From Antedon bifida (Eukaryota > Echinodermata > Crinoidea > Comatulida > Antedonidae): DNA of 64,000 nt. Shown piece after piece: positions 4,293-64,000 of the stretch. Below the pieces are notes generated by a model that saw nothing but the letters and a program-made list of their open reading frames with translations, had not been told where the DNA came from and searched no databases. The stretch's first letter is position 1. Every line of letters begins with the position of its first letter. The DNA is taken from assembly GCA_963402885.1 (NCBI GenBank), contig OY727099.1:20355001-20419000 (forward strand). Direction: 5' to 3'. Position numbers and translations under genes: made by a program.

Positions 4293-5747
4293 CGATCTGC
4301 ACATCCCACCCACAAGTAACCAAATCACAAAGGGAGCTTATAGGATCACACAGGGTTGTGTAAGTTCTGTTACAATAGGCAATTTTGCCCTAAGCCTGAA
4401 AAAAAAAACAAAGGTAACGCATTCTTGATTTAAAACATTTATTTTAAGTTCCATTTTCAATGGATAACATGTTTACAATTCAAACTACTTCAGCTGTTAA
4501 TATTCTAATTTACACACACATTTGGCAGATAGATATTATATTATATTTGGCTATAAAATATTAATCATAAAAGTTGGTATACAGCACCATTGTATAATAA
4601 CAATTTCATAATTTAAAAAAACAATAATTATAAAATCATGTCAATTAACTTATAATTTGACATTGGTTTATTCTTTACAATAAAAACTTTATTTTGTCAA
4701 TTTCACATAATAATATTAAGTATAATAAAATTATGTCTTTATGCGATAGTTTACAAATAATGAATGTTTGCGAGTTGCAGGCCTAACATTCATTATTTGT
4801 TTAAAATTTCCCCTTCTGTTCTAAAGTAAGCCTCCCATTGGCCAACACTCTCAAAAAGTTGAACAAGCAGTAGAACGAATAGAACTTATATTGTGCAATA
4901 GAATACCAGACAGCACATGAACCAATCAGTATATATACACCGGTATATTTAAATATACCGTTTTTTTTCGAATAAATGTATTTAATCACTCCTTGATATT
5001 AATTGTGTTGTATTTTTCATATCTAGGGGTATTTATTTGATTGTACATGTTACCATATTACACCCAAAAAAAAATATGCCCCCGCAAATAAACACCCCGG
5101 GGCGGTTTGAGTAAATATGGTACGTTATATTTTGTTGCTTACAATGAGCTGTAATTCTAAATTAACTGTAGAATTTCCCAGCATTTAAAATACCAAACGA
5201 TGTATCCTTTTTCACAAAGATTGGAAGCTACCAATGCTGTTTAACTCACAATGCCATTCTCTACTTTTACATTTATTTATTTATTGTAGGCTGCCAGTGC
5301 TGTTAGTTGTCATTATCTCTGCTTATACATTTATTTATTTATTTGTAATACTGTTACCTCCCACTCTTATAAACTCACTTTTTCATTTTTATACTCTTTT
5401 GAATACAACAGTTTTTAATTTGTCACTTGTCTTCTGTATTTGATGTTGTGTTGCCAGACTTCATTAAAGCCTGGTTCCCACTTGGACGTAACGCAACGAT
5501 GTTGGGTCAATACAAGATAGTTGACCAATCACAAGCAGGGAATCAAGTTTTAGACTGAGCTTCACTGCAAAATTATATTATATTTTTCATTCATTGTAAT
5601 ACTAATACAACATATCTGCATGAAGAGCTAAGGTGTAAATGTTTAAAGATAATGTTAAAACAAACTGCCTACATTCTATTCATTTTAAATGGTTTTCGCA
5701 CAAGTTGTAACAACTGCATTTGAAATTAGCGTTATATATTCTTATAA

Positions 5748-31809: not shown

Positions 31810-34800
31810 GTACGAGCGAGTTTTTATATTTAAGAATATGGGGGTTAATCTCTACTAATTTTCCATTGTATATGTTTGGTACTATAATTTGTTGATGACG
31901 TATTGTATGTAATGAAGATTAATTAAATCAGACTTTATAGGTTATTTTGTAAAGTTAATCACTTCCGTAGAAAAAAAACGGGAAAAAACCTTTTCACTTA
32001 TAAATTAACACAATAAATGGTTAAATTCAACCAAAAATTCATTGACTGGCAGCCAATTTGACTTTTTTTTGCTTTAAATTACATTTTTTTTCAAGTAAAT
32101 AAATTATGTTTAGATCCAATTTTTGTTATCCTATTATGTGACATTAAAATGGCATATTAAAAAAAATGTTTAAATATTTTTCAGGGGAACAATACATCTT
32201 TAAATACCATTTTGCAAAATGTTCTCTGCGTGTAATATTAGGGGAGATATAAAAGTTGTATCTTTTTGTCCACTGCGACGGTTAGCCTATACATACGAAT
32301 TTGATTAACCAAATCATCCATAAATAAATCTCGCTGCTTTTCAAATGTGTTTCATAATATGAAATGAAATATTTTGTTCAGTTAATTCAAATTATTATTA
32401 TATATTATTTATTTGTAGCTGGCCCTGTTGTGTTTACTGATTGCCCAAATCAAATAACTTTAGAAATACGGGGCAACCAAGCAACGATAGACGCTCACTG
32501 GGACGAACCCGTAGTGGAAAACGCAGTTGAAATGCAGAATAACTACGAGTCAGGTCACGAATTTCCAATCGGTACCAGGACGGTTAATTACACGGCGATT
32601 GGAGTGAATGAAACGGCAGAATGTCTGTTTAATGTGGTCGTTAAAGGTATTTTAAAATTGGAATTTCACTATATAGGCCTAGGTTAAAAATAAAACGTGA
32701 TGGTGAATCTTTGACGGTTAAAAATGATCGGAGGAACCAACCCATGTCAATATCATCACTAGATGAGAGGTGCATCTTAAAGACTCTTCGATCGTGCGCC
32801 TATCCCTAAATGCATCTGGCTAATAAAACTTTTACATAGGCAAGAGAGAATGAAAATAATTATAATTATTTTACATTTCCCTGCATAGACCTACTTTATT
32901 TTAAATTCTAAATAACAACAAACATTAAACACTACATGACGTCATTCACTTTTTAGATAAAGAACCACCCCTTTTCGTGAATTGTGACAAGACAATCAAC
33001 ATAGAAATACCAAACGGGCAACAATCGGCAGCCGTTAGCTGGATGCTGCCAGCAGCAATCGACAACGCTGATGTAAGCGTTAATATGACGCCGACGGCGC
33101 TCCGTTCACCAGGAGATGTCTTCAAGTATGGCCCGACAAAGTTGAAGTATTATGCAACCGATAGTTTCTGCAATGAAGGCTCATGTGACCTCATTATAAA
33201 CCTGTACTGGGCCAATTGTAAGTTGTTGATTCTAGATTCTATATATAGAAAAAAAACTGTACTGTATGTTATGGAGACTCGAAAGGCAAACTATAGTAAA
33301 CTGCCTTATTTGAGTAGTGGAAACCTTAAGTGCCGTTCCGCATACCATACTGTACGTTGCTAGTTTTACCCATTCTTTATTTACAGTCTAATCGATCTTT
33401 TAATATAGTTGACGTTTCAAGTATTTAATAGAAATATTTCTCAGCATTGTGTTTAATTCCGCTAGATGAATAAGTACAGTATATCGCGGCATCAAATAAC
33501 GACTAAAGTTATGCGAGCGTCACTTCATCATCAATTTTTGTCATCATTTAACATCGTTATCAAATTCAATATAATAACATAATACATAACACGTTCTTCA
33601 GTTAAAATAGATAATCATATTTATTTGTTGATCAATTATATATTATTTGAAATAGCATACATTTTAAAGCAATATTAATTTAGATTCTTCTTGAAATAAA
33701 AAAATTCGAATTCAATGTGATTAATTAAGTCTTTGATGGCTGGTCTTTGGTTTGGTCTGGAATGAAGGCAGGGTCCACTGATATCTATTAGCGGCATTAA
33801 TGCTTTGTTGGCGGCAATGCCTTCAATTATGACACCAAGACTGTAGATGTCTGAGGCAAAGGTCGGTGGTGTGTTGGTGTTATACAGCTCTGGTGCATTT
33901 TCCGGGTGCTCTTGCATGAGGTCGAAGACATCGGCTTTGTCGGTATTGTTCAATTGGAAGACATCAAACGGTGCTTCTGCGGTGCAAACTGAGCCAAAGT
34001 CGACAATTTTTGCAGAGATACGAGGACCCTTGTTGTAAATAAGAACATTCCGAGTCGCCAGGTCATTGTGAATCAAGCCATTCATCTGAAGTACCTCAAC
34101 TCCTTTTGCGATGTCAAAAACAATGCGAAAACAATCAATCGTGGTAATATGTGGTGAACCAGATGCTAAAGCTTTCATCAATGATGTTGATTTGAATGAT
34201 GTTGAGTCGCCAACAAATTCCATAACAATGGCCCATTGTGTGTCGGAGGTAACTGCTTCACAAACACCATACACCCGTGGAAACACGTCGCTTTCTTGGG
34301 ATAACACCTTAATTATTCTAGCTTCAAGGGAAACTGCCAGCTTGTCGGCGAACCGATTGAATTTTCTAGACTTATTGGTTGTTGAGATGATAGTCTTAAC
34401 AGCCACAAGTTTGCCATTACAATCTCCAAGGCGATTAAGCAAAACTCTGCCATAGGAACCAGTGCCAAGTACGATCTATAAAGTAAACACGTATACAATC
34501 ATTTATAATGTTTCTTTCTGTCATAAAAACATTTAAAGATTATCTGTCAAAAGCTTTGATTGGCGTGTTGAACCTTTCAAATTCAATTCAACCTACCTGG
34601 TGACTATCCTTCGTTGCTGGAAACAGACGATCAGATGCTAAATATTGAACATGGTTTTTAAAGTTTCCATCCATTATCCGGATTTCAAGTGACATGCGTT
34701 TTATCCAGTGTTCCGAAGTTGGAGAAGTTTTGAAGTCTTGTTTGCTCCAAGTGTTACTGAACAATGATTCGTCGTTCTGGTGATTCCTACATATTGGTGA

Positions 34801-37800
34801 TGAGGTCAGTGGGCTATACAGACTTGAGCAATATCCATTGGTTGTGTGGATGTTACTGTCACTTCCATCTGGTGTGTATCCAATTGCCGGTACATTATTG
34901 ATAACGTCCAGGAGGCACCATTTTCTTATCCAGTTAAGAGCTAGCATTGAGTCAGGTTCGTCGTTTCTACGTCCAAAGACGCGTCCATCTAGAATAAGAA
35001 GATCTCTTGCAAATCCACTTATTATACCATTATCAATACTAAATGGCAATTCTTGGTTGTATCCGATGGCCGATGTTTGGGGTAGTGTGAGAATAGCAAT
35101 TCCATAAATGATTTGGATAATTGCTATTCTCAATGCAGGTGGTACGCTCAACCAGGCTTGAAATGATGTTTGATCATTGTCATCATCGTTAGCATTGTAG
35201 AAACAACACAGGACATATTTCTTGAAAAAGCCTGAAATGGCTGACCGGCTGAAAATTAAAAAAATATTTCGTTATTGTATTTTTGGGTTTTTTTTAATTA
35301 TCGGAATAATCATTATACTTCGTCATACGTTTTCTATTTCTACTATTTTTTCTCTGCTAAAAAAAAAAGAATTGACTGTATGTAACATACCTGTTCTTAA
35401 AGCATTTTTTGGGTTTCCAAGTTTTAAAGGGGTTTCTCCAGGACCTTCCAGGCATCTCTGAAACAAAAAGGACACATGGTACAGTAATGTCAGTAGGCTT
35501 AAATTCAAGTTACGATAGACTGGTATGGTTCGTGTTACTTCGACCGCTGCCCCATATACAAATGCAAAATGCCCTATTAACTACACTTACGCTTACACGT
35601 TATGTTTGATGGAATTAGTTCAGGCATACCTCCATGGTCCAGGCTAGTGCCTATTTGCTTCCATGTCTAGTCTTAACAATGTCAAGTCTCGACTTAAATG
35701 TATTGACTGAGGGGGATTGAATAACTGACTAGGGCCGGGCATTAACTGAGGGGGATTGAATAACTGACTAGGGCCGGGCATTAACTGAGGGGGATTGAAT
35801 AACTGACTAGGGCCGGGCATTAACTGAGGGGGATTGAATAACTGACTAGGGCCGGGCATTAACTGAGTGGGATTGAATAACTGACTAGGGCCGGGCATTA
35901 ACTGAGGGGGATTGAATAACTGACTAGGGCCGGGCATTCCAATGTTTAATTATTCTGATAGAAAAAAAGTTATTTCTGCACTAAACTAATTCTCTATTTA
36001 TGAATAAAACAGTGTAATATTTGTTAATACAATCTCTGTGCCATATACAAAAAAATGCCCTATAAATAATGAATTTTATTTAAAATATTGCTTACCTCTA
36101 GAAGGTTTAAATAGAAAAAGAATTCTAACAGAAAGTATTCAATCTAAAATACAAAACAAAAACATGTTTTAAACAATATCAACTCCAGTTGATGCTTGAT
36201 TCTTTAAATCGAATATACCAGGAGAAGTGAAACGTTTTCCTAAGTGTGCCTAAAAAGTCAGACGGGGTTTTGATTCTTTATTTAGTAGTAGGGGTCTCGG
36301 TTGTTATAAGCTTTAAAATTATTCATCTAAACGAATTGAAGTATTTAAAATTTAAATTAAGTATACATTATATTGTAGTATATAATACACAATAAGTAGA
36401 AACTTACTGAGCTTTGTAGATTCCGTGTTCACTCTTGAAAATTCATCCAAGTTATGTTTTGTTTAGTTGTCATGCAGTTCCTCATGGAAACGTCGTTACC
36501 TTGGCACAAGCGCGCGCGTAAGGAAGTGTGCAAAAATAAAGCGGAAATGCGTTACGCTTACAGCTAGCAACACACGTTGATGGTTGGATTGAATCTATAC
36601 ACACTATGCTGTTTTAAAATAATATAAATGCCCGACCGTATACATTCCAATTGATATTTGTTTGTTGTTTAATAGTGTATGCTGGGCTTAGAAGTTGCAC
36701 ATTAGTGCTTTTTATTATATCCGTTGCGAATCGCAACCGAACTATTCCAACTCAAGTTTTATATTATGATATTTAAAATAAACAATCTGGCATTTTTTAT
36801 TAAATTTATTTATTATTTATAATATTGTTTTTATTGTTTAAATAAAAAATGAAGTAAGAATATGAATGAAGAAAAATGTGTGTAAATTTATAAAGTATAC
36901 TCCTGCACAAAATGTAGGCCTTAGTAACACATACAATGTGAATGCATTTGTCGCTCTTATTCGTTCCAGTAAAATCATCGTACGTCACAGTACGTACACA
37001 ATTTATGTTTATGGTAAAGTCGTCACATGTGGTAGGCCTATATATTTCACCCTGTGTATCAAGATTTTTCCTATAACACTGTATACATTATAAACTGTTC
37101 AGCGCAAATTGACAAATCACAATTTCAAACGATAGAATATTCAAACTGTCGCTTGTCATTGGTCAACTCACTTGCGTCACGACCTAGTGGGAACCAAGCT
37201 TTAGGGATGGTATCAAATTGAAAAAAAGTATAAAGACCACGATTACAACAATTTTAAATTTTAATGTTATTTTTTTATTTATGTTCAAAAGTCAGTGAAG
37301 ACCAGCCACGGATCCATGATTGTCCAGATGATGTGGAATTCCTTATCACCAACTCTTCATCGACAGCCAATATTACATGGACACCTCCTACGACCGACAT
37401 GGAGTTTTCAAGTCTTCACCCCGAACCAGACATAGCGTCAACAATTGAACCCGGCTTCTCGTTTCCACTGGGTATAACCATTGTAGAGTACGTAGCATCA
37501 GTTAACAGTGGCGGAATAATGCGTTACAATCTGTGTACGTTTACTGTACGGATATTAGGTAAGTATGTCAATTTGCGTTACATTGTGTGTACTTTTACTG
37601 TACGGGGTATTAGGTATCTATGTCACTTTCCATTTCAAACTCTGTACATTTACTGTACGGGGTATTAGGTATCTATGTCACTTTCCGTTACAATCAATGT
37701 ACATTAACTGTACGGGGTATTAGGTATCTATGTCACTTTCCGTTACAATCAATGTACGTTTACTGTACGGGGTATTAGGTATCTATGTCACTTTCCGTTA

Positions 37801-40800
37801 CAATCTGTTTACATTAACTGTACGGGTATTAGGTATCTATGTCACTTTCCGTTACAATCTCTGTACATTTACTGTACGGGTATTAGGTATCTATGTCACT
37901 TTCCGTTTCAATCTGTTTACATTTACTGTACGGGGTATTAGGTATCTATGTCACTTTCCGTTACAATCGGTTTACATTTACTGTGCGGGTATTAGGTATC
38001 TATGTCACTTTCCGTTACAATCTCTGTACGTTTATTGTACGGATATTAGGTATCTATGTCACTTTCTGTTACAATCTGTTTACGTTTACTGTACGGGGTA
38101 TTAGGTATCTATGTCACTTTCCGTTACAATCAATGTACTTTTACTGTACGGCGTATTAGATATCTATGTCACTTTCCGTTACAATCAATGTACGTTTACT
38201 GTACGGGGTATTAGGTATCTATGTCACTTTCCGTTACAATCTGTTTACATTAACTGTACGGGTATTAGGTATCTATGTCACTTTCCGTTACAATCTCTGT
38301 ACATTTACTGTACGGGTATTAGGTATCTATGTCACTTTCCGTTACAATCTGTTTACATTTACTGTACGGGGTATTAGGTATCTATGTCACTTTCCGTTAC
38401 AATCTGTTTACATTTACTGTACGGGTATTAGGTATCTATGTCACTTTCCGATACAATCTCTGTACGTTTATTGTACGGGTATTAGGTATCTATGTCACTT
38501 TCTGTTACAATCAATGTACGTTTACTGTACGGCGTATTAGGTATCTATGTCACTTTCCGTTACAATCAATGTACTTTTACTGTACGGCGTATTAGGTATC
38601 TATGTCACTTTCCGTTACAATCAATGTACATTAACTGTACGGGGTATTAGGTATCTATGTCACTTTCCGTTACAATCAATGTACGTTTACTGTACGGGGT
38701 ATTAGGTATCTATGTCACTTTCCGTTACAATCTGTTTACATTAACTGTACGGGTATTAGGTATCTATGTCACTTTCCGTTACAATCTCTGTACATTTACT
38801 GTACGGGTATTAGGTATCTATGTCACTTTCCGTTACAATCTGTTTACATTTACTGTACGGGGTTATCTATGTCACTTTCCGTTACAATCTGTTTACATTT
38901 ACTGTACGGCGTATTAGGTATCTATGTCACTTTCCGTTACAATCTCTGTACGTTTATTGTACGGGTATTAGGTATCTATGTCACTTTCTGTTACAATCTG
39001 TTTACGTTTACTGTACGGGGTATTAGGTATCTATGTCACTTTCCGTTACAATCAATGTACGTTTACTGTACGGGGTATTAGGTATCTATGTCACTTTCCG
39101 TTACAATCTGTTTACATTAACTGTACGGGTATTAGGTATCTATGTCACTTTCCGTTACAATCTCTGTACATTTACTGTACGGGTATTAGGTATCTATGTC
39201 ACTTTCCGTTACAATCTGTTTACATTTACTGTACGGGGTTATCTATGTCACTTTCCGTTACAATCTGTTTACATTTACTGTACGGGTATTAGGTATCTAT
39301 GTCACTTTCCGTTACAATCTCTGTACGTTTATTGTACGGGTATTAGGTATCTATGTCACTTTCTGTTACAATCTGTTTACGTTTACTGTACGGGGTATTA
39401 GGTATCTATGTCACTTTCCGTTACAATCAATGTACGTTTACTGTACGGCGTATTAGGTATCTATGTCACTTTCCGTTACAATCAATGTACTTTTACTGTA
39501 CGGCGTATTAGGTATCTATGTCACTTTCCGTTACAATCAATGTACATTAACTGTACGGGGTATTATGTATCTATGTCAATTTCCGTTACAATCAATGTAC
39601 GTTTACTGTACGGCGTATTAGGTATCTATGTCACTTTCCGTTACAATCAATGTACTTTTACTGTACGGCGTATTAGGTATCTATGTCACTTTCCGTTACA
39701 ATCTATGTACATTTACTGTACGGCGTATTAGGTATCTATGTCAATTTCCGTTACAATCTATGTACATTTCTGTCCTGTCTTGCCGCTGTTGTCGTCATCA
39801 TTTTCTTTGTTGTCGCCATCATTTTTCCTGTTGTCGCCATCATTTATCCTGTTGTCGACGTCATGTCACTTCAATATTGTAGTCGACACTATCGTCTTTA
39901 TTTGCGTTTTGGTCCTTGTTCTCGTCGTTGTCATTTTTGTTTTCATCATCATGTCTGTAATTTGTTACCATAAATTGATTTCATCATCGTTGTTCCCGTC
40001 GTGGTTTATTGCGTCGTGACATTTATCGACGTTATCGCGTTGCATGGTGTTCTCATCATATATTATCGTTATGAATGAACGACGATGACGCAAGAGTTAG
40101 GCTTACCGTACCTCCTTATTGTAAAATGCGATTATTGTGATTAGTAATGTTTAAAAAGTCAGTTATTACATTTTATTTAGACCGATACCCCACGCAGGTC
40201 ATTGAAAAAATAAACCCAGACCCCGAACCGACGATACAAGGTCTACCAACTGCGACGGTGATGTGGCAAGCCCCTGTATTCGAGGACCAGCGGCCGTTTA
40301 CAGTAAGTGCGTCCAACTCAGCTCTTAGTGGAGTATTCAATATCGGTACAAGTTACATTAAATACAGTACTGATGATGGAGACTGCAACACTGATGATGC
40401 CTCTGCGACCATTGTCATAACTGTATACGGTAAGCATACATGTTTTATTTTATTCGTTACGAATCTAAAAAATACTAAAGATACTATATGTTCAATAGAA
40501 CATAAACCCAGTCATATGAATTGTGTTGCCTTTAGACACTGCACTTTCAACACTCCATGAATTCTACTCCCCGTGTACTCCCCTCCAACGCTGGAGGCCT
40601 CAGGTGTTTTTAGCCTTTTCGACATATTTTACTGCCTGTTTTTCCTTTGGACACTGCTCAGGGACCCCCATAAGAACCGGGGCCCCTTGGATTAGCCAGT
40701 GAGCGCTCAAAGCCGTCGTTACGCCACTGATAATACTATTGATCTATGGTTTCGGAGAAAACATTTTGAAATTTTACCTTGACCATGACGACCTAACTCA

Positions 40801-46800: not shown

Positions 46801-49800
46801 GAATTTTAATAAAACATTTTTCTAATTCATTTACAGATTATGAAATTCCAGTTATAACAAATTGTCCGGGAAATCAGACCATTCCAACTGACCATCGCAT
46901 GCCCACAGCGGTAGCCACCTGGGTCGATGCGACACTCAACGACAACAGTCTTGGGGAAATTGACTTTTGGTGGAGTATTCCTAAACATTTCGAATTTCAG
47001 ATTGGATTAACGGTTGTGAATTTAACAGCTAGAGATGAATCGGGAAATGAAGAAACATGCGAATTTTACATCAACGTTTATGGTAGGCCTATTTTGCAGT
47101 AGTTATTCTACAATGAATCTAAACCGATCATTTATTGTTTTTTAGATAACCATTAACCATTTTCAATGCCATTAAACGCACATTCTTTTTCATACAGATA
47201 ATGAATCTCCCGTATTGACATGTACAGATGTAACTGTACAAAATGCGTACCGTTTACCGTCTGCCGTCGTCACGTGGACAGATCCTGTTGCGACTGACAA
47301 CAGTGGTCTTGATATAACATTGTCATTCTCTATTTCTTCTGGTTCAAACTTTACTCTTGGACAGACGGTAGTGGAGTATGACGGGACGGATCCGTTTGGT
47401 AACGTCGGTAACTGCTCCTTTGTAGTGACAGTTGAAGGTGATTTATGAAAATTAATTTTAAATATATATTGTTAGTTAGGCCTATACAGTGATGATATAT
47501 TACACATTTGTAGATAGTAACACTGATTTTGGGTCCAAAAGACAAATAAAGCAAAACTTATAACGATGTTTAACATATTTCAGATACGGAATCACCATAT
47601 TTTACATACTGTCCTGGAAACATCACAAACAGTACAGATCTACGATTACAAACTCATTCTGTCGTCTGGCCAAACCCAATAGCTCAAGACAACAGCGGCA
47701 ACCAGCCTCACGTTGTGTCCAACTATAATCCTGGCGATATATTTATTCTTGGTGTCACAGTGGTAGTATACAAGGCAACAGACAATGACAACAACCCGAA
47801 TGATACATGCTCGTTTGAAGTTGAAATTATCGGTGTGTTGGTTTAATTCATTTTTAAAAGATGTAAACATTATGATTAACATCAGATGTAATGTTTTTAT
47901 GATTTATAAGATAAGATGTTAGTTATTATAAACAGTTGTTGACGCCACTAACTAACATAGCGTAATCTACTTAACTTATCCATCCAATAATAAGATTCAG
48001 TAACTGAATTCAAAGTACTTATATTATCCTTTATTTATCAAACTAGTCTTTTTATCTTATAAAATGGAAAGCTTCGTTATCTAACAGTTGATTGACTTAT
48101 AACAAAATTAAGATGATCTTTTTGCTAAGAATGTTAGACGAATCTGACCTAGTATCCAAATTTAATTACAGTATTCTTTTTCTTAATTTCTACTTGAAGA
48201 TGTTGAGCCTCCAGTTATCTCAAACTTTCCAGCTAACACATCACTGCCAACAGACTATCGGCTACCAACCAGAGAAACGACATGGAATGATGTTGTATTG
48301 TTTGATAACAGTCTCGGAGATATAGCTTCTTGGTGGAATATTGCCAACGGTTCTGTACTCGCTATTGGTCCGACACACGTATTCCTGACAGCAAGAGACG
48401 AATCGGGAAACGAAGCTATTTGCAAATTTTACATCTCAATAATTGGTATAAATTGCTTTATGCTGCAATCATTGTCAGTGTTAATTAATTAAACAACATT
48501 GTACTGTTTATTTCTTTCCCCTTGAGCGACAAATTATAGTAGAGTTTTAGACGAACGAGAGCATAGTTGTTGTGTTTGAGAGCTTGAGTATTTATTTTTT
48601 AACAATTTCAGTTTCTGTTTTTATTCGTTATTTACAGACGATGAGTTACCGGTCCTTACCTGTCCACAAGTATCGTCTGTTGAAAACACATACAGGTTAC
48701 CGTCTGGTATTATAGAATTTCCAGATCCAGTAGTAACCGACAACAGTGGTCTGTACGTAAATTTAACAGCCTCAATTACGACGGGCTCGGCATTCCATAT
48801 TGGAGATACCGTGGTTCACTACAATGGAACTGATCCATTTGGCAACATTGGAAATTGCTCCTTTATTGTAACAGTATTAGGCAAGTTATCGTTTTTTTGT
48901 CTTAATTTTAAATCTTACAGTAGCCTAAACGTACAGTATGTAAAAATCACTTCCTTTTTAAAAACAAATTTCTTTACTTTTTTAATGTAGACACTGAATC
49001 TCCATATTTTACGTACTGCCCTGGAAACATCACAAACAGTACAGATCTACGATTACAAACACATTCTGTCGTCTGGCCAAACCCAATAGCTCAAGACAAC
49101 AGCGGCAACCAGCCTCACGTTGTGTCCAACTATAATCCTGGTGATATATTTAGTCTTGGTGTCACAGTGGTAGTATACAAGGCAACAGACGACGACAATA
49201 ACCAGAATGGTACATGCTCGTTCGAAGTTGAAATTATCGGTAAGTTTTGAATGTCTTATCTTTCTAAAATCTTGTCTTCCTTAGAACTTGTTTCCTTTCT
49301 TTCATTTCATTCTTTCTTTCTTTTTCTTTACTTTCTTTCTTTCTCTTTACTTTCTTTCTTTTCATTTTCTTTCTTTCCTTTTATACTTTTTCTTTCTTTC
49401 CTTCCTTTCTTTTTCCTTCTTTTCTTTCTTTCTTTTCGATAAGTTTTGAATGTCTTATCTTTCTAAAATCTTGTCTTCTTTAGAACTTGTTTCTTTTCTT
49501 TCATTTCCTTCTTTCTTTCTCTTTCCCCATTTTTTCCTTTCTTTATTTTCCTTTTCTTTCTTTCTTCCTTTTTTTCCTTTCTTTCTTTCCTTTTTTATTA
49601 TGTTTCTGTTTTTCCTTTCTTTTTTTCTTTTTCATGTATTTCTTTTCCTTCCCTTTCCCCATTTTTTCCTTTCTTTATTTTCGTTTTCTTTCATTCTTCC
49701 TTTTTTTCCTTTCTTTTTTTTTCTTTCTTTCTTTCCTTTTTTATAATTTTTCTGTTTTTCCTTCCTTTTTTTCTTTTTCATGTATTTCTTTTTCTTCCCT

Positions 49801-63491: not shown

Positions 63492-64000
63492 ATATCGCAA
63501 CTGTGACTACTCGAACACTGGACGAATACAAAACCGTACAACTGTGACTACTCGAACACTGCACGAATAAATCGCACAACTGTGACTACTCGAACACTGG
63601 ATGAATACAAAACCGTACAACTGTGACTACTCGAACACTGCACGAATAAAAAATCGCACAACTGTGACTACTCGAACACTGCACGAATAGAAAACCGCAC
63701 AACTGTGACTACTCGAACACTGCACGAATAGAAAACCGTACAACTGTGACTACTCGAACACTGCACGAATAAAAAAACCGTAAAACTGTGACTACTCGAA
63801 CACTGCACGAATAAAAAACCGCACAAATGTGACTACTCGAACACTGGACGAATACAAAACCGTACAACTGTAACTACTCGAACACTACACTGTACGAATA
63901 AAAAATCGCACAACTACTCGAAAACTGCACGAATAAAATATTGTAAAACTGTAACTACTCGAACACTGCTCGAATAAAAAATTGCACGACTGTGACTACT
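63492..64000. repeat. 41-bp minisatellite, about twelve copies, cut by the window edge
   Basis: Unit AACTGTGACTACTCGAACAC followed by TGCACGAATAGAAAACCGCAC, period 41, with single-base changes and indels in the A-run. It lies in the intron after exon 44 and continues past base 64000. Confidence 0.92.

Follow-up and report, generated by a model that had tools for sequence, protein, structure and literature searches.

A probable mirage-type minisatellite with weakened copies of a splice donor in an HYR gene of the crinoid Antedon bifida

Background

The closest described relatives of the repeat array reported here are the "mirages" of amphioxus, tandem repeats of minisatellite size whose unit spans an exon-intron boundary, and which have been described in Adh3 and in the globin genes BflGb6 and BflGb9, with PGBD5 and troponin C also named (PMC3087553, PMC3902484). 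Mirages apparently leave regular splicing undisturbed though many of their copies hold AG/GT signals, and their copy number differs between haplotypes, with 6 and 3 units in BflGb6 (PMC3087553). Here, we describe an array in an HYR gene of the crinoid Antedon bifida, located within a 64,000-nucleotide stretch of contig OY727099.1 (assembly GCA_963402885.1, positions 20,355,001 to 20,419,000, forward strand) that we refer to as the window, and whose numbering we use throughout unless another locus is named. We interpret it as most probably a further, large case of the mirage structure known from amphioxus.

Introns themselves are said to be gained by tandem duplication across AG/GT proto-splice sites, as reportedly proposed by Rogers in 1989 and Zhuo in 2007, both cited in PMC3087553. 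Repeats at exon-intron boundaries are also described in human (PMC2812944), and in the open-licence PMC literature amphioxus and human are the cases of exon-boundary repeats that we have met so far, which does not imply absence elsewhere.

Results

Twenty-six HYR domain matches, each in an open stretch of its own, follow one another on the plus strand over approximately 32.4-52.8 kb of the window, and the array lies among them. Using Tandem Repeats Finder (TRF), we delimited it at 37522-39773, with a period of 55, 41.5 copies, 91% matches and a score of 3482, along with a higher-order period of 436 bp. When phased on the splice donor, the array consists of the end of the exon at 37292-37558, then 40 full units (23 of 55 bp, 15 of 54 bp and 2 of 49 bp), and then a partial unit, with each unit corresponding to the last 36-37 bases of the exon and the first 18 bases of the intron (Table 1). 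This exon, whose boundaries we place by domain, phase and splice signals, ends in phase 1, and the array occupies 84% of the 2622-bp intron that follows it; among the 25 introns listed for the gene, one is longer (ends approximate, from domain positions).

An original prediction made from the letters of this DNA had proposed that a 54-bp unit, born from the end of the third HYR exon plus its splice donor, is repeated about 40 times as an array of decoy donors. Our alignments and counts bear out the source, the copy number and the decoys, 36 of 40 copies keeping a TAG/GTATCT site, while the unit length holds for 15 units, the commonest length being 55 bp. Comparison of the last 36 exon and first 18 intron bases at the 3' end of exon 37292-37558 with the 54-bp consensus of the array gave 48 identities and six differences, and the best single copies agreed at 47 of the 54 positions. 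An exon-end 55-mer reached 48 matching bases within 600 bases of the array, compared with a maximum of 31 in 500 shuffles. As the exon is an HYR exon, its coding end is the likely source of the unit.

Pairwise identity among the 40 copies averages 0.91, and exact direct repeats of up to 276 bp are present within the array (one haplotype), which together point to growth by blocks of several units. Variable columns make up 3 of 18 in the intron-like part of the unit and 17 of 38 in the exon-like part (Fisher p = 0.07, with the two 6-base deletions taken as one column); in the exon-derived part they number 3, 6 and 7 at codon positions 1, 2 and 3, giving no useful signal of codon-like constraint.

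The array shares with mirages its tandem repetition at minisatellite size (40 units of 49-55 bp), a unit that spans an exon-intron boundary, as judged from domain, phase and donor, and AG/GT signals in the copies, with TAG/GT kept in 36 of 40; in both systems, intronic copies carry these signals and edge copies are set apart (PMC3087553). It differs in lineage (echinoderm vs. amphioxus), in copy number (40, against the 6 and 3 of the BflGb6 haplotypes), and in a weakening change that is common to its copied donors. Both intron gain by tandem duplication and the human boundary repeats (PMC2812944) resemble the array in placing AG/GT within the duplication, so that each copy carries a potential acceptor and donor; unlike in intron gain, however, the array sits inside an existing intron and its copies score poorly as acceptors. 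Like the array, the intronic variable number tandem repeat of ABCA7 that alters splicing is a long tandem repeat within a coding gene whose length could matter for splicing (PMC5954066), but nothing seen in the array links length to splicing.

Table 1 Features of the array, its source exon and the other donor duplications (window positions, except for locus L018)
Feature	Position	Strand	Evidence or score
HYR exon 3, likely source of the repeat unit	37292..37558	+	Pfam HYR 39.1 bits (cut-off 21.7); own HYR profile E 2.3e-23
Exon-derived part of the unit (37 bases at the exon's 3' end), encoding RYNLCTFTVRIL plus the first base of G	37522..37558	+	Alignment to 40 copies
True donor TAG/GTAAGTATG	37559..37567	+	12.2 bits, 97th percentile of 177 HYR donors
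Intronic array, 40 units plus a partial one	37559..39773	+	TRF and donor phasing
36 decoy donors TAG/GTATCT (first 37614, last 39732) plus 4 altered	37614..39737	+	5.9 bits
Next exon, divergent HYR	40181..40429	+	Pfam HYR 18.9 bits, below cut-off 21.7
True donor TCG/GTAAGT of another HYR exon, same gene	49240..49245	+	
Copied donor TCG/ATAAGT, GT lost, 199 bp downstream	49439..49444	+	
L018 two-copy 65-bp duplication, ~40 exon plus 25 intron bases	1399-1534 of L018	minus	Donor 1496, copy 1431

To score donors, we used a weight matrix from 177 of 178 HYR donors, with the array's own donor left out, and a second matrix (n = 176) from which one doubtful donor was also dropped. As predicted, a GTAAGT true donor stands ahead of GTATCT copies: 36 of the 40 read TAG/GTATCT and the other four are altered (one TAG/ATATCT, one TAT/GTATCT and two with a 6-base deletion over the site), GTAAGT is found in 0 of the 40, and all 40 have TC where the true donor has A+4 and G+5. 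The 36 copies score 5.9 bits, at the 3rd percentile of the 177 real HYR donors (5.6 bits and the 2nd percentile with the n = 176 matrix), and GTATCT itself occurs in 0 of 176 real HYR donors. This position in the lowest 2-3% arises because +4 and +5 are jointly changed to TC. The loss of G+5, to which the prediction had tentatively attributed a silence of the decoys, cannot alone explain any such silence, since 72 of 176 real HYR donors lack G+5; at n = 177 the +5 base is G in 104, T in 49, A in 19 and C in 5, and the HYR donors of this genome are tolerant at this position. Pairing with the presumed 5' end sequence of U1 has an energy of -13.3 kcal/mol for the true donor and -6.6 kcal/mol for a decoy.

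As acceptors, the copied AGs score from -3.3 to 2.5 bits, values as low as which are seen in at most 4.8% of 187 real acceptors; these scores, together with the 5.9 bits of the donor, describe the potential of a copy as a new acceptor and donor. The idea that the copied AG/GT sites serve as strong acceptors or recursive-splice-like sites is unsupported, given acceptor scores of 2.5 bits or less.

According to the prediction, splicing at a decoy would also extend the protein by in-frame strands as far as a frame-shifting 55-bp unit, an expectation that fails at the outset, as the first four units of the array are 55 bp long. The frame of the exon itself meets a stop at 37666-37668, the sole decoy ahead of a stop is the first one, whose joint shifts the frame, and when each of the 40 decoys is joined to the exon at 40181, none yields a product that is both in frame and free of stops, so decoy use would truncate the protein. 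With this stop and no decoy in frame, a coding reading of the array is ruled out. A truncated decoy-spliced product would be expected to undergo nonsense-mediated decay.

At 186 HYR exon ends, of which 178 have GT in phase 1, we looked for local duplication across the donor, using 291 kb of DNA with some overlap between loci and counting identical ends once. Donor-spanning local duplication was found at 3 of 186 ends, namely the array, a locus on another stretch (L018) whose copied donor reads ATATGT against an original GTATGT, and the exon of the same HYR gene with its donor at 49240, where a 199-bp tandem duplicate of the intron start covers window positions 49237-49630. Ends in L021, L024 and L046 with intact-donor copies 580-1345 bp upstream were left out because each copy is itself an HYR exon end (the L046 copy is the HYR box at 4870-5098, while those in L021 and L024 are taken, from their position and tail, to be exons truncated at the locus edge), and 11 further hits at boxed HYR exons were set aside from the duplication count. 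At exon starts there were three tandem hits, two for one L046 exon and one in L012.

By random placement of the same number of substitutions in each duplication (for L018, 2 substitutions, with an edge difference and one indel left out; for 49240, 4 in 83 bases), the chance of a donor at or below 5.9 bits is 0.33 for the array, 0.12 for L018 and 0.15 for 49240, with a product of 0.006. Of the 2848 intron positions +1 to +18 beside HYR exons, 55 (1.9%, with 5 exon ends touched) lie in arrays (period ≥20, score ≥60), vs. 4.9% outside HYR boxes; as coverage beside exon ends is not raised, the boundary is ruled out as a duplication hot spot.

An approximately 4.1-kb intron of the HYR gene holds, nested and antisense to that gene, a protein kinase frame of 266 aa (33675-34475, minus strand; PF07714, 74.8 bits). 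The same intron contains a 39-bp repeat (35702-35938, 6.1 copies, 98% match), and the region 35644-35949 around it is open on the minus strand as PSQLFNPPQLMPG repeats, with no Pfam match. A 41-bp tandem array at 63498-64000 continues past the window end. In the 315.6 Mb of genome searched (27 contigs), the HYR set is very large, with 1376 first-look candidates, of which 150 were scored, on several contigs and foremost on contig C9; SRCR is likewise abundant, with 409 first-look candidates and 150 scored. In the mitochondrial contig of 15,844 bp, COX1 contains 6 TGA codons under translation table 11, whereas the reading frames are open with the echinoderm code (code 9), as befits an echinoderm host, and the strand bias suggests a crinoid.

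Discussion

We conclude that the array is probably an exon-boundary minisatellite of the mirage type, in its origin, its amplification and its removal with the intron. Slippage or unequal exchange would have duplicated approximately 54 bp across the boundary of one HYR exon, of which the likeness between exon end and unit is the visible trace, and local and multi-unit duplications, such as those that may have left the exact repeats of up to 276 bp, would have taken the array to around 40 units. Splicing most likely relies on the true donor, which is near-consensus, precedes all the decoys and scores about 6 bits higher, in which case the array would leave with the intron; no useful function of the array is apparent.

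The +4/+5 change common to all 40 copies implies that weakening either preceded amplification, presumably in a founder copy, or was spread later by homogenisation. Together with the loss of GT in both two-copy duplications, this shared change fits selection against strong decoys and suggests that a copied donor can persist only once disarmed; boundary duplications with a strong copied donor may be purged, leaving the disarmed ones. We advance only tentatively, and with considerable doubt, the stricter sequence of events in which a copied donor becomes tolerated and expandable only after it has lost splicing strength, because homogenisation could also equalise the copies and the U1 pairing of the decoys is ordinary.

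A number of observations weigh against a mirage shaped by such selection. The pattern of donor damage suggests itself from three events picked post hoc, with a product p of about 0.006 and 0.33 for the array alone; three events are insufficient to prove selection against strong decoys, and one of them, the 49240 duplication, carries only 3-6 exon bases. The decoys are weak, yet not dead: 22 of 176 real HYR donors are without both A+4 and G+5, 95% of the 3922 GTs on the plus strand of the window (decoys included) score below the decoys, and the U1 pairing of the decoys is weaker than the median of 178 HYR donors (-7.7) but stronger than their 75th percentile (-5.9), which makes the decoys ordinary for this genome's donors by that measure. 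In addition, use of the true donor is presumed from its sequence, and the polarity of the +4/+5 difference appears from the donor consensus, not from an outgroup.

The strongest rival, to which we give somewhat less than an even chance, is a plain neutral mirage, in which tandem duplication strikes anywhere in introns, a boundary is sometimes included and donor differences are due to chance; it departs from our preferred explanation only in the step of selective removal. It is favoured by the finding that boundaries are not hot spots (1.9% vs. 4.9% coverage), by the probability of 0.33 that founder differences in the array weaken the donor this much, and by the ordinary U1 pairing, but it leaves to chance that all three donor duplications have a weakened or lost copied donor (product 0.006, post hoc).

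Alternatively, the decoys may work as a distributed intronic enhancer made up of weak downstream U1-binding sites, which would help an exon with a poor acceptor to be recognised, a role that we consider unlikely. Exon 37292-37558 has the acceptor AAAAG, whose score of 3.7 bits is close to the 5th percentile of 187 acceptors (3.4 bits), the decoys still pair with U1 at -6.6 kcal/mol, variation is lower in the 18 intron-like bases of the unit than in its exon-like part, and PAH exon 11, where U1 bound downstream of the 5' splice site promotes exon inclusion, offers a precedent (PMC5933811). However, the bias in variation is non-significant, and help from U1 would hardly be needed because the true donor is already near-perfect.

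Protein diversification through alternative decoy donors that add FTFTVR-type beta strands, for which the 54-bp unit of 18 codons and array stretches open as GIYVTFRYNLFTFTVRVL in the phase of the exon might speak, is highly improbable and already largely refuted, with no in-frame, stop-free decoy among the 40, a frameshift at the one decoy that precedes a stop, and array AGs that are poor acceptors. Equally remote is an array that came first and then overwrote the exon end by gene conversion: the likeness over 54 bp is symmetrical, but the exon end encodes an ordinary, cysteine-containing HYR tail and keeps the same phase as other exons of the gene, and a 479-bp DNA query against the genome gave no second source of the unit (5 matches, every one in the array, by a search method that can miss common words). 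As this tail is common to the other exons of the gene, the array most likely came from the exon.

Read as a mirage that arose from an HYR exon end, the array extends such structures beyond amphioxus, at high copy number, and provides a natural experiment in which one strong donor stands ahead of 36 identical weaker ones. If copied donors do have to lose their strength before they can be amplified, mirages would preserve a natural record of how selection acts against decoy splice sites, in this case outside cephalochordates. The frequency of damaged donors among boundary duplications in annotated genomes would gauge this selection, whose strength bears on the conditions that permit intron gain by tandem duplication.
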